Assembly: GCF_000518485.1 (NCBI RefSeq)
Contig: NZ_JADR01000001.1
Coordinates: 1 to 64,000, forward strand
Source of the DNA: Olleya marilimosa CAM030
GTDB taxonomy: Bacteria; Bacteroidota; Bacteroidia; Flavobacteriales; Flavobacteriaceae
Length of the DNA stretch: 64,000 bases
Reading direction: 5' to 3'
Part shown: in pieces, positions 6,464-9,183 of the stretch
Layout of the letters: every line of letters starts with the position of its first letter
How positions within the stretch are numbered: the stretch's first letter is position 1
Position numbers and translations under genes: made by a program
The notes under the pieces: model-generated
The model's input: only the letters and a program-made list of their open reading frames with translations
Told to the model about the DNA's origin: nothing
Databases searched by the model: none

Positions 6464-7771
6464 CTAACCTCCAGAAGCTAATTGCATTAAAATTGTACAT
6501 CCAATGGCAGCTAAAGTACCAACAGCATATCCAAATACAGCTAAAAGAACACCTACTGTTGCTAAGGATGGATGAAAGGCTGATGCTACAATTGGAGCAG
6601 ATGCTGCACCACCAACGTTGGCTTGACTTCCTACAGCTAAAAAGAAATATGGTGCTTTAATAAGTTTTGCTACACCAATTAATAGTAGTGCATGAATACC
6701 CATCCAAACAAATCCTATGGCTATAAGTCCAACATTATCAAATATTGAGCTAATGTCTATTTTCATACCAATGGTTGCTACTAAAATATATATAAAAACA
6801 CTGCCAAATTTACTAGCTCCTGCACCTTCATAATTTTTAGCTTTGGTAAAAGATAGTAAAATGGCTATAATGGTTGCTATACTAATCATCCAGAAAAAGG
6901 TGCTATCTAAAAAGGTAAAGGTGTTTTTTAAAGTAGGAGACTCAATCCCTGAAATTATGTTTCCAAAAAATGGCGCTAAATTGTCAGCACATAGGTGTGC
7001 CATGCTTACAGTTCCAAAAGCTATGGCAGCTAATAACATTAGGTCTGTTAGGCTTGGATTACGTTTAACACTTTCTGTAAATGTTGACATTTTTTCTTTA
7101 AGCGCTTCAATGGAAGAGGTGTCTGCTTTAAGCCACTTATTTATGCTAGCTCTTTTTCCTATACCAATAAGTAGGATGGCCATCCAAACATTAGCAACAA
7201 CTATATCCACAAAAACCATTTTTCCGTATTCGGCTTGGTTATAGCCATATATTTCTAACATAGCAGTTTGATTGGCTCCTCCACCAATCCAGCTACCTGC
7301 TAATGTAGATAAACCTCTCCAAACAGCATCAGGACCAATACCACCAACAGTGTCTGGAGATATAGAGGCAATTAATAATATAGCTATGGGACCACCAATA
7401 ATAATACCTACAGTACCTGTAAAAAACATTATTAATGCTTTCCATCCTAAATTAAAGACAGCTTTTAAATCAATACTTAGGGTCATTAAAACTAGTGCAG
7501 CAGGTAAAAGATATCTACTTGCAACATAATATAAGTTAGTTTTGTGCGATACAATCTCTCCTGTATCACTTGTTGTTTCCCATTCAGGAGCAATTAATCC
7601 TATAGTAGTTAATATTGCAGGTAGCATATATGCCATAAATAGTCCAGGAACAATTTTATAAAACTTTTCCCAAAAACCGCCTTTCAAGGATTCTGTATAA
7701 AAAATTAGACCTAATGCTATCATTAACACTCCAAAAACAATAGTGTCGTTTGTAAATAATGGTTCACTCAT
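6464..7771 (-). CDS. DUF819 family integral membrane protein
   Basis: This 435-residue protein has about ten to twelve hydrophobic segments. Segments such as RGLSTLAGSWIGGGANQTAM and SQANVGGAASAPIVASAFHP are the conserved glycine-rich re-entrant-like stretches of the DUF819 family, and the two similar halves are typical of transporters with inverted repeats. The family is widespread in bacteria and plants, inner-membrane located, with an unproven transport role. The start MSEPLFTNDT is 68 bp after the twin RNA promoter region on the opposite strand. A lipoprotein gene follows 51 bp downstream. Confidence 0.88.
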   Translation of the reverse strand: MSEPLFTNDTIVFGVLMIALGLIFYTESLKGGFWEKFYKIVPGLFMAYMLPAILTTIGLIAPEWETTSDTGEIVSHKTNLYYVASRYLLPAALVLMTLSIDLKAVFNLGWKALIMFFTGTVGIIIGGPIAILLIASISPDTVGGIGPDAVWRGLSTLAGSWIGGGANQTAMLEIYGYNQAEYGKMVFVDIVVANVWMAILLIGIGKRASINKWLKADTSSIEALKEKMSTFTESVKRNPSLTDLMLLAAIAFGTVSMAHLCADNLAPFFGNIISGIESPTLKNTFTFLDSTFFWMISIATIIAILLSFTKAKNYEGAGASKFGSVFIYILVATIGMKIDISSIFDNVGLIAIGFVWMGIHALLLIGVAKLIKAPYFFLAVGSQANVGGAASAPIVASAFHPSLATVGVLLAVFGYAVGTLAAIGCTILMQLASGG

Positions 7772-7839
7772 AATTTTAATTTATAGATAACGCAAAATAA
7801 TCAAATAAAACGGTTATTAAAAGGTTTAAAAATAAAGTT

Positions 7840-7854
7840 TGGCACAGGATTTGT
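7840..7854 (+). promoter_or_regulatory. sigma-54-type promoter of RNA copy 1
   Basis: TGGCAC (7840-7845), a 5-bp spacer and TTGT (7851-7854) match the RpoN -24/-12 consensus TGGCAC-N5-TTGC except for the last base. The same arrangement occurs exactly 193 bp further on, before a second copy of the same RNA. Confidence 0.7.
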
Positions 7855-7865
7855 TTAATGTAAAA

Positions 7866-7980
7866 TGTAATTATTTATGATGACATTCTAATACTAGGTG
7901 TGGTTACCTAAACAGAAAATAGTAAAAATTACATTTGGTTGGTTAGTATGAAAAAGCATCCCTTTAAGGATGCTTTTTCT
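7866..7980 (+). ncRNA. candidate structured small RNA, copy 1 (about 115 nt)
   Basis: The expected start, 12 nt after the -12 element, falls on TGTAATT (7866-7872), which pairs with AATTACA (7927-7933) to close a basal stem. Inside it are TTATGATGAC and the hairpin TAGGT-GTGGTT-ACCTA (7895-7910). After the stem come TTTGGTTGGTTAGTATG and a terminator, AAAAAGCATCC / GGATGCTTTTT (7951-7979). Copy 2 keeps all these parts. Short frames differ between copies (MMTF then stop here), so a peptide is unlikely. I know no family that matches. Function is unknown; a trans-acting regulatory RNA is the simplest idea. Confidence 0.65.
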
Positions 7981-8032
7981 GTTTTTAACTTTAATAAACC
8001 TTTAACATCATAATTTGTTAGGTTATTGGTTT

Positions 8033-8047
8033 TGGCACGACAATTGT
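8033..8047 (+). promoter_or_regulatory. sigma-54-type promoter of RNA copy 2
   Basis: TGGCAC (8033-8038), spacer GACAA and TTGT (8044-8047), in the same register to its RNA as copy 1: 12 nt from the end of the -12 element to the first paired base. Confidence 0.7.
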
Positions 8048-8058
8048 AATATTAAAAG

Positions 8059-8174
8059 TGTAATTACTTATGATGACTTTCACAACAGGTGTGGTTACCT
8101 AATTGAGACGAGTAGTAATTATCATATTTTTGGTTGGTTAGTATGAAAAAGCATCCTTTTAGGATGCTTTTTCT
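8059..8174 (+). ncRNA. candidate structured small RNA, copy 2 (about 116 nt)
   Basis: This is the tandem paralogue of the RNA 193 bp upstream. The basal stem is GTAATTACT (8060-8068) with AGTAATTAT (8114-8122), nine pairs including one G-U; it is longer than in copy 1 while several stem bases differ, which supports real pairing. TTATGATGAC, the hairpin AGGT-GTGGTT-ACCT (8087-8100), the single-stranded TTTGGTTGGTTAGTATG and the GCATCC terminator (8146-8174) are conserved. The terminator can also end the convergent hydrolase gene at 8197. A ten-codon frame MMTFTTGVVT exists but is not kept in copy 1. Confidence 0.65.
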
Positions 8175-8196
8175 ATTTAACATTGTTTGGTTATTA

Positions 8197-9126
8197 TTAT
8201 TTAGAAGTAATAAATGATATTATTTTTTCTAGCAATCCATCTGCTAGTGGTCGTTGTGACTCGTTATAAGATTTTGAGTTTTCAAGATCATCACCAGCAA
8301 TAGTAACCATAACATGGTTCATATTTTTTATAATTTGTATTGAAGCATCCTTAGCAGCTTCTTTTAATAATAGTGCTTCAGCTTGACTAACTTGTAAGTC
8401 TTTGGTTCCGTTAATAATTAACGTAGGTACATTTAAAGTACTTATAATATCTACAGGGTTATGTTTCATCCAACTCATAAAAAAACGTTGTGTTTCAATA
8501 TTAAATATTGAAGATAGTGCTACAGGATAATCTGTAGTTGTTTTTCCGCTTTTTAAAATATTGAATATACGTTTAGTGTCTGCTGTAAATTGAGGTGCAG
8601 TTTTTTCAATTTGTTCAATAATAACACTATCTATAGTTTGACCTGCTCCAGCGATAGATATAAATCCATCAGCTTTATCCTTAGCTGCTAACATACCAAT
8701 CAGGCTACCTTGGTCATGACCTACAATATATATCTTATTATATTGATTAAGATTTTTAAAATAATCTAATACATCAATCGCGTCTGTAACAAAGTCGTCA
8801 AAGGATAAATTTTTATCCACATTGTTTTGTCTTATTTGTTTAACTATACGTTTATCATATCTAAAGGTTGCAATACCATTTTTGGTTAATCCTATGGCTA
8901 GTTTTTTTATGTTGTTAGTTTTTAAAAAGTTTTGATTACCATCTCTGTCAGTTGGACCATAACCTGCTATTAGTATTGCTAAATCAGGTTTATTAGCATC
9001 AATGGAGGTTAGTAATGTTCCGTTTATATGTTTGCTAATAGTAACTTCTTTGGAAGTGTAAGTCACTTCTTGAGCAACCGAAGTTGAAAATATAAATAGT
9101 AGAAAAATTACAAGATGTTTTTTCAT
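8197..9126 (-). CDS. secreted alpha/beta hydrolase with Asp at the nucleophile elbow
   Basis: This 309-residue protein has a signal peptide (MKKHLVIFLLFIFSTSVAQ) and an alpha/beta hydrolase fold: ILIAGYGPTDRDG oxyanion region, FRYDKR strand, elbow VGHDQGSLIG (residues 135-144), acid segment NGTKDLQV and the catalytic histidine in MNHVM near residue 272. The elbow has Asp138 where most esterases have Ser, as in epoxide hydrolases and haloalkane dehalogenases; the codon is clearly GAC. Substrate unknown. It has a -7 element at 9184-9191 and an array of ATCGAT boxes farther upstream. The gene converges on the twin RNAs. Confidence 0.85.
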   Translation of the reverse strand: MKKHLVIFLLFIFSTSVAQEVTYTSKEVTISKHINGTLLTSIDANKPDLAILIAGYGPTDRDGNQNFLKTNNIKKLAIGLTKNGIATFRYDKRIVKQIRQNNVDKNLSFDDFVTDAIDVLDYFKNLNQYNKIYIVGHDQGSLIGMLAAKDKADGFISIAGAGQTIDSVIIEQIEKTAPQFTADTKRIFNILKSGKTTTDYPVALSSIFNIETQRFFMSWMKHNPVDIISTLNVPTLIINGTKDLQVSQAEALLLKEAAKDASIQIIKNMNHVMVTIAGDDLENSKSYNESQRPLADGLLEKIISFITSK

Positions 9127-9183
9127 ATTAAAATGTTTTAACTAGTAAGTCAAATAAAGTGCCAAATTTCAATTTTTATAGTT

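Follow-up and report, generated by a model that had tools for sequence, protein, structure and literature searches.

Two tandem units in Olleya marilimosa CAM030 belong to a large RNA family that is widespread in Flavobacteriaceae and apparently undescribed. We are highly confident that its members are independent sigma-54 RNAs, their transcription and their dependence on sigma-54 being inferred. In the absence of transcript data, the best reading of the family, which we hold to be probable without being secure, is that it forms the base-pairing sRNA arm of a sigma-54 stress regulon. The units lie in a stretch of 64,000 nucleotides of contig NZ_JADR01000001.1 (positions 1 to 64,000), referred to below as the window. 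An earlier note, made from the letters of the window alone, had interpreted them as twin small RNAs, each with its own sigma-54-type promoter. This interpretation is supported on every part that can be tested computationally; there are no transcript-end or rpoN-mutant data.

Organization of the two units

Both units (7839-7984 and 8032-8176) consist of a sigma-54 −24/−12 promoter, a three-part stem, the tail UUUGGUUGGUUAGU and a terminator. The features of the locus, with the evidence for each in brackets, are as follows.

6464-7771, − strand: DUF819 membrane protein, divergent neighbour, conserved synteny
7839-7854, + strand: sigma-54 −24/−12 promoter of copy 1, TTGGCAC-N5-TTGT (sequence; pattern against shuffled controls; kept in homologues)
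~7866, + strand: predicted start of copy 1
7866-7984, + strand: RNA copy 1, from predicted start to terminator T-run (fold z −4.4, alignment, pair counts)
7867-7872, + strand: 5′ arm of the basal stem of copy 1, pairing with 7927-7932 (RNAalifold, pair counts)
7876-7884, + strand: kink-turn-like strand TAT-GAT-GAC of copy 1; on the opposite strand ATA (7919-7921) replaces CGA (alignment, strand count)
7896-7909, + strand: apical hairpin AGGTGTGGTTACCT of copy 1 (sequence, RNAalifold)
7934-7947, + strand: conserved tail TTTGGTTGGTTAGT of copy 1, proposed seed (alignment, conservation)
7950-7979, + strand: intrinsic terminator of copy 1 (consensus scan: 1 in 7700-8300, shuffle mean 0.1)
8001-8020, + strand: inverted repeat TTTAACA-N8-TGTTA between the copies, possible activator site (recurrence in Olleya arrays)
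8032-8047, + strand: sigma-54 promoter of copy 2, TTGGCAC-N5-TTGT, predicted start ~8059 (sequence; pattern against shuffled controls)
8059-8176, + strand: RNA copy 2, from predicted start to terminator T-run (fold z −3.5, alignment, pair counts)
8069-8077, + strand: kink-turn-like strand TAT-GAT-GAC of copy 2, opposite CGAGTA at 8109-8114 (alignment, strand count)
8087-8100, + strand: apical hairpin AGGTGTGGTTACCT of copy 2 (sequence, RNAalifold)
8129-8142, + strand: conserved tail TTTGGTTGGTTAGT of copy 2, proposed seed (conservation)
8145-8173, + strand: intrinsic terminator of copy 2 (sequence, fold, covarying pairs; missed by the consensus scan)
8197-9126, − strand: alpha/beta hydrolase, convergent neighbour, conserved synteny

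The promoter assigned to each unit was borne out. TTGGCAC-N5-TTG is found at 7839 and 8032, and the pattern TTGGCAYN5TTG has 3 matches in the window compared to 0.21 expected, a number reached in 0 of 100 shuffles. The hairpin AGGTGTGGTTACCT, the tail TTTGGTTGGTTAGTATG (starting at 7934 and 8129) and the GCATCC terminators of both copies were found where the note had placed them. The distance between the units, described there as exactly 193 bp, has that value for the promoters only, since the hairpins are 191 bp and the tails 195 bp apart. The fold of each unit is better than that of all 200 shuffled versions (z −4.4 for copy 1 and −3.5 for copy 2). Folded alone, the tail is predicted to be only 36% unpaired in copy 1 and 65% in copy 2, a point against the seed role proposed below.

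The alpha/beta hydrolase gene has a TTGGCAC-N5-TTG site of its own (9151-9165, − strand, 25 nt upstream of its ATG), so that the locus may hold a third sigma-54 promoter. This site is present in some further Olleya loci too.

Structure of the RNA

All 10 Olleya genomes searched carry a tandem array of 2, 3 or 4 copies, 26 in total, with tail-to-tail distances of 189-199 bp (16 distances). RNAalifold was applied to the 26 aligned copies and, unprompted, returned three stacked helices and the terminator. The segments flagged earlier as basal stems form the real basal stem according to both RNAalifold and the pair counts. With the structure named, 97.6% of the cells in the 25 distinct rows are paired, compared to 41-54% in slid versions. 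Two-sided changes were counted in 37 cells (shuffle mean 9.9; 0 of 500 shuffles reach 37) and in 8 of 33 pairs (shuffle mean 4.8; 6 of 500 shuffles reach 8).

Across genera, a search of 86 of the collected loci with a covariance model yielded 90 matches at E up to 0.01, 70 of them distinct. The distinct copies contain 245 cells with two-sided changes (shuffle mean 74) and 59 further pair types (shuffle mean 41), neither value being reached in any of 500 shuffles, and 91.5% of their cells pair as opposed to 36-45% when the structure is slid. The number of pairs with a two-sided change is less telling (17 of 21; shuffle mean 15.0; 40 of 500 shuffles reach it). The multi-genus alignment was fitted to the model and is biased towards it; the Olleya result is free of this bias. 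Covariation in homologues, the check that the note had proposed, was found within Olleya as well as across genera.

Between the outer and middle helices, NNN-GA stands opposite GA, which is the plan of a kink-turn. The RNA has the defining sequence features of this motif, a 3-nt bulge that leads into tandem G-A/A-G pairs with a helix on either side, and both flanking helices vary in pairs. The sequence TTATGATGAC, previously listed as a conserved landmark inside the stem, is present and proves to be more than a landmark: its second half constitutes one strand of the bulge and tandem G-A element, the other strand being CGAGTA. Both strands are found in 23 of the 25 distinct Olleya rows and in 46 of the 70 multi-genus rows. 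Copy 1 of the window is one of the two Olleya exceptions, with ATA in place of CGA, and the same replacement occurs in its sister copy in genome G004. Among the 24 multi-genus rows that do not have both strands are one incomplete copy and subclasses with a long simple hairpin. The stem probably contains a kink-turn, as judged from sequence; the bend and the binding of an L7Ae-type protein are inferred. The multi-genus matches also keep the tail and the loop, which reads UGGUU or differs from it slightly (UGAUU, UAGUU).

Distribution in Flavobacteriaceae

At E up to 1, a covariance model restricted to stem and tail, with promoter and terminator left out, has matches in 64 of the 397 family genomes; the weaker of these matches are doubtful. 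Hosts identified by name, among the matches listed in a separate scan, include Winogradskyella, Algibacter, Psychroserpens, Bizionia, Mesonia, Salinimicrobium and two Flavobacterium species, as well as Kordia algicida and Lacinutrix algicola, which have four copies each in one array. A direct pattern, consisting of the promoter, then 54-84 bases, then the tail, was found in 104 of the 397 genomes, which represent 71 of 237 genera, and its reversed form gave no match in any row listed. The 104 genomes include at least one coding false match (G067, also L280), which was not removed, and the remaining matches were not all inspected. On the other side, at least 3 of 30 genomes scored as RNA-negative carry a shorter homologue. 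No member was seen outside the family: of 246 genomes from the order's other families, 8 contain the exact tail, at 10 places altogether, and none of the 8 places that were inspected is preceded by such a promoter within 140 nt.

The promoter is kept along with the tail. The collected loci contain 79 distinct places with TTGGTTGGTTAG; TGGCA(C/T)-N5-TTG precedes 75 of them by no more than 130 nt and is missing from the other 4. The site is retained at 24 of 25 tail-bearing places in Olleya and 51 of 54 in other genera. The Olleya loci were retrieved with promoter-containing DNA and those of other genera with the promoter-free model. Because that model excluded the promoter, its retention outside Olleya constitutes independent support. 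In two arrays (L057 and L058), the TGGCAC promoter of the middle copy has been lost, although its stem and tail remain. The presence of rpoN could not serve as a discriminating test and was rejected as uninformative, since all 60 genomes tested, RNA-positive and RNA-negative alike, have the gene.

The earlier remark that the sequence is unlike any known family agrees with Rfam 15, in which no family reaches the gathering score for this RNA: in 7 kb around the locus, and likewise in 8 homologous loci, only a tRNA reaches the gathering cut-off. No match to the Qrr family is among those listed for the locus at E up to 5. No prior description was found in the literature searched, from which subscription papers were mostly absent, and the sole relevant paper was PMC9723704.

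Gene context

Gene context was determined for 175 distinct copies with enough DNA, counting ORFs of at least 100 aa within 500 bp downstream. The nearest downstream feature is another copy in 29 cases, a same-strand ORF in 25, nothing in 1 and a convergent ORF in the other 120. In 141 loci (some overlapping, usually of 8 kb or less, and with the coding false match mentioned above kept in the counts), 82 contain the hydrolase, 79 DUF819 and 78 DUF4369, and these genes are invariably encoded on the other strand than the RNA. The orientation of the downstream ORFs and the opposite-strand neighbours therefore indicate a largely syntenic family that is not a leader. A structured RNA ending in a terminator could be a cis-acting leader, attenuator or riboswitch, and the same-strand ORFs nearest downstream of 25 of the 175 copies count in favour of this. 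However, the context is mostly convergent or tandem, no same-strand downstream gene is consistent, and nearly every copy is preceded by its own promoter. We thus regard a cis-acting role as highly improbable, and the attenuator and riboswitch were rejected on gene context. Homologues always preceding a biosynthetic operon would have refuted the original interpretation, and this is not the case.

Two further candidates were dropped. A sigma-54 promoter is not a conserved feature of the neighbouring genes, being found for the hydrolase in 8 of 71 cases with a relaxed pattern, for DUF819 in 0 of 75 and for DUF4369 in 0 of 73. A conserved small peptide starting at the ATG after GGTTAGT is unlikely because this ATG is missing from many tails.

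Candidate targets of the tail

The 14-mer tail or a one-letter variant of it is found in three settings: in the sRNAs, in mRNA 3′UTRs and, in antisense, in the leaders of mRNAs, where it reads ACTAACCAACCAAA. When up to one mismatch is allowed, the 13-nt complement is found at 17 places outside the sRNAs in the window's genome. Four of these are in sense and no more than 30 nt upstream of an ATG, compared to about 0.1 expected (binomial p ~2e-6). The expectation allowed for composition using 48 window genes, and the 30-nt limit was chosen after the sites had been seen. The four sites belong to a LytTR response regulator (exact, 15 pairs with copy 1), an ECF sigma factor, a BBP2 porin and a Sortilin/BNR-repeat protein, with predicted duplexes of −16.5 to −21.5 kcal/mol. 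The place of the BNR site is ambiguous because it lies between two in-frame ATGs; without it, 3 of 17 remain (p ~1e-4). Genome-wide, the complement is not in excess (19 matches in G000 vs 13 for the reversed pattern, a control that has the core of the motif). The LytTR site was seen in two sister genomes only, and inspection of the other Olleya matches did not recover the sites of the porin and the BNR protein. One-mismatch sites in unrelated contexts of other Olleya genomes were dropped as targets.

The best-conserved candidate target is the ECF-sigma operon (L392:2247-4361), its targeting being inferred from complementarity alone. Besides the ECF sigma factor, the operon encodes two DUF4252 proteins and, in the anti-sigma position, a protein that has no match in Pfam. 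All 8 Olleya genomes examined have a CCAA-rich site ahead of the ECF-sigma start. In 22 further RNA-positive genomes the site is looser, with AACCA in 21 and longer words in 18. When the tail was paired with 30 ECF-sigma leaders, 1 of 500 shuffled tails bound as well; 23 leaders from genomes scored RNA-negative were nearly as good, with 2 of 500 shuffled tails matching the tail. Comparison of the 22 positives outside Olleya with the 23 negatives revealed no difference in duplex energy (p = 0.13) or in longer complementary words (18/22 vs 16/23, p = 0.49). The core AACCA was found in 21/22 positives vs 14/23 negatives (p = 0.01). The 23 negatives headed a list of 30 matches, the 7 weaker entries of which were omitted (28 genomes were matched and 2 were not); one of the 23 has a GTG start. 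As a marker of RNA presence the site therefore failed on duplex energy, AACCA alone separating the groups. Since RNA-negative leaders are nearly as good, co-occurrence does not firmly tie the site to the RNA.

The tail in 3′UTRs

In the 3′UTRs, the tail sits between the stop codon and the terminator. It is present downstream of clpB in Olleya (869 aa product, NCBIfam equivalog ClpB) and, judging from partial reading frames, in two other genera. The clpB loci with the tail or a one-letter variant before the terminator are L390, L175, L188, L095 and L103. The clpB 3′UTR is a candidate source of a 3′UTR-derived sRNA. Further 3′UTR tails belong to an hsp20 gene and a SusD-like gene (both assigned by Pfam) and to the gene of a secreted Arg/Ser/Asn-rich protein at 6 loci (L083, L094, L101, L106, L108 and L113). 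This protein has no Pfam match (L083 scanned), and its gene has a sigma-54 site 51-86 nt upstream of the start codon at 6 of 6 loci. No sigma-54 site was found for the hsp20 and SusD-like genes in the DNA examined, and clpB of the window's genome has only the variant TTGGTAA-N5-TTG upstream. In Flavobacterium psychrophilum, passages of PMC9723704 report sigma-54-type promoters at the mapped starts of clpB and other chaperone genes.

Proposed mechanism and alternative explanations

In the mechanism that we propose, sigma-54 RNA polymerase would transcribe each unit as a separate non-coding sRNA gene. The RNA folds into a stem that carries an apical hairpin and a probable kink-turn, and the G/U-rich tail UUUGGUUGGUUAGU and the intrinsic terminator come after it. 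The tail would be the seed and would pair with ACUAACCAACCAAA-like sites at translation starts, so that initiation would be blocked. The ECF-sigma operon would be the best-conserved target, with the LytTR response regulator and the BBP2 porin as single candidates. Tandem copies would provide a higher dose, and the tails in the clpB, hsp20 and secreted-protein 3′UTRs would allow the stress regulon to supply this seed in additional amounts. We find it reasonably likely that the tail works through pairing at translation starts. The data establish the family, its structure, the promoters, the synteny and the conservation of the tail; transcription, dependence on sigma-54, the role of the tail as seed, its targets and their repression are inferred.

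The tail can be explained without such pairing in two ways. The RNA could be a decoy that binds and titrates an RNA-binding protein through the UGGUU motifs recurring in its loops and tail, in the manner of the CsrB/RsmZ-type and CrcZ-type RNAs. UGGUU is indeed found in the apical loop and again in the tail, and the Flavobacterium homologues repeat it: L347 has it in two hairpin loops and the tail, with a fold that is not above chance (21 of 200 shuffles as good), and L298 has it in one loop and the tail, with a fold that beats shuffles. Two further loci were left out of account, L081 because its fold ended short of the terminator and L134 because it is no homologue. Moreover, the stem has a kink-turn-like element, and kink-turns commonly bind proteins. 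However, 12-14 nt of the tail are near-invariant, which is longer than a typical repeated protein motif, and exact or near complements of the tail are found at start codons; we consider a decoy unlikely. The tail could otherwise be a 3′-end module, either an RNA chaperone site or a stability or termination signal, with the true seed located elsewhere, for example in the apical loop GUGGUU. This loop too is near-invariant in the matches of the model, and the tail directly precedes the terminator not only in the sRNAs but also in the clpB, hsp20 and secreted-protein 3′UTRs. Such a module would leave the complementary sites at start codons unexplained. In addition, the exact 14-mer has a single copy beyond the sRNAs in the window's genome, where it is antisense to a leader, the clpB 3′UTR having one change. 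A purely 3′-end function thus appears quite unlikely.

Base-pairing by the tail can be given a wider form, which we advance only tentatively and regard as somewhat doubtful. One RNA word, UUUGGUUGGUUAG, would be common to the sigma-54 stress regulon; released both from dedicated, in many cases tandem, kink-turn sRNAs and from the 3′UTRs of stress mRNAs, it would repress a common set of mRNAs including the ECF sigma operon. If this were true, one sigma factor would silence another post-transcriptionally. Flavobacteriaceae are major marine polysaccharide degraders in which post-transcriptional control is little explored. The present work adds an sRNA family that is widespread and whose structure is defined; candidate targets can be named for it, and its candidate regulator is clear. 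It makes testable the role of sigma-54 in Flavobacteriaceae, the existence of a base-pairing regulon and the evolution of sRNAs and mRNA 3′UTRs around the same seed.

Comparison with known systems

The enterobacterial RNAs RybB and MicA depend on sigma-E and on Hfq and repress envelope genes. The proposed system would be similar in that a stress regulon under an alternative sigma factor has an sRNA arm; both the sigma factor and the RNA are different. The Qrr RNAs are sigma-54-dependent and LuxO-controlled, are encoded at scattered single loci in Vibrio and pair with luxR/luxO mRNAs. To our knowledge, no kink-turn is known in them. The Olleya units resemble them as several near-identical sRNAs, and differ in belonging to another phylum, in lacking an Rfam match and in being organized in tandem arrays rather than scattered loci. 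The resemblance to Qrr raised in the note can thus be retained only as a functional analogy: there is no Rfam-level relation, and both the neighbours and the candidate targets differ. For Vibrio Qrr1-5, passages of PMC8043402 describe five RNAs that act post-transcriptionally and are largely redundant, and one title in its reference list names LuxO and Sigma-54.

In Bacteroides, FopS/GibS is a multicopy Bacteroidota sRNA family with a shared seed, according to passages of PMC11697453. In the same passages, FopS is described as a repressor of SusC transporters that binds close to start codons; it has a 5′-end seed, a single-stranded stretch with a terminator, and canonical sigma-ABfr promoters, and one member is 3′UTR-derived. 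The RNA described here is likewise a multicopy Bacteroidota sRNA for which start-blocking is proposed. Unlike FopS, it has a 3′ tail, a kink-turn-like stem and sigma-54 promoters. FopS/GibS RNAs are characterized by a single-stranded R1 seed at the 5′ side and by binding of RbpB; the invariant stretch here is 3′ of the stem and adjoins the terminator. By analogy, the RNA may work like Qrr or FopS, and membership in either family is not shown.

Finally, passages of PMC9723704 describe Rfp36 of F. psychrophilum, a putative regulatory RNA whose promoter is of the sigma-54 type (SM4) and whose start was mapped to 840245; they give no structure, family or targets. Rfp36 is similar to the present RNA in being a regulatory RNA with a sigma-54-type promoter. 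It may be a homologue, no sequence comparison being at hand. If it has the tail UUGGUUGGUUAG before its terminator, it would be the first transcribed member of the family.

Upstream elements and repeats

A universal upstream activator site was sought in 197 upstream regions, where no single motif stands out. The recurring upstream words TGATATCA/ATATCATA may belong to the divergent neighbour gene. Upstream DNA was examined for 22 Olleya copies. The inverted repeat TTTAACA-N8-TGTTA, located ~11 bp upstream of the −24 element, precedes 10 of them, all second or later copies of their arrays. The repeat at 8001-8020 is a possible activator site. In another Olleya genome (G008), ACTAACCAACCAA has 39 forward genome matches with at most one mismatch, compared to 4-12 in relatives, and this excess possibly reflects a repeat.
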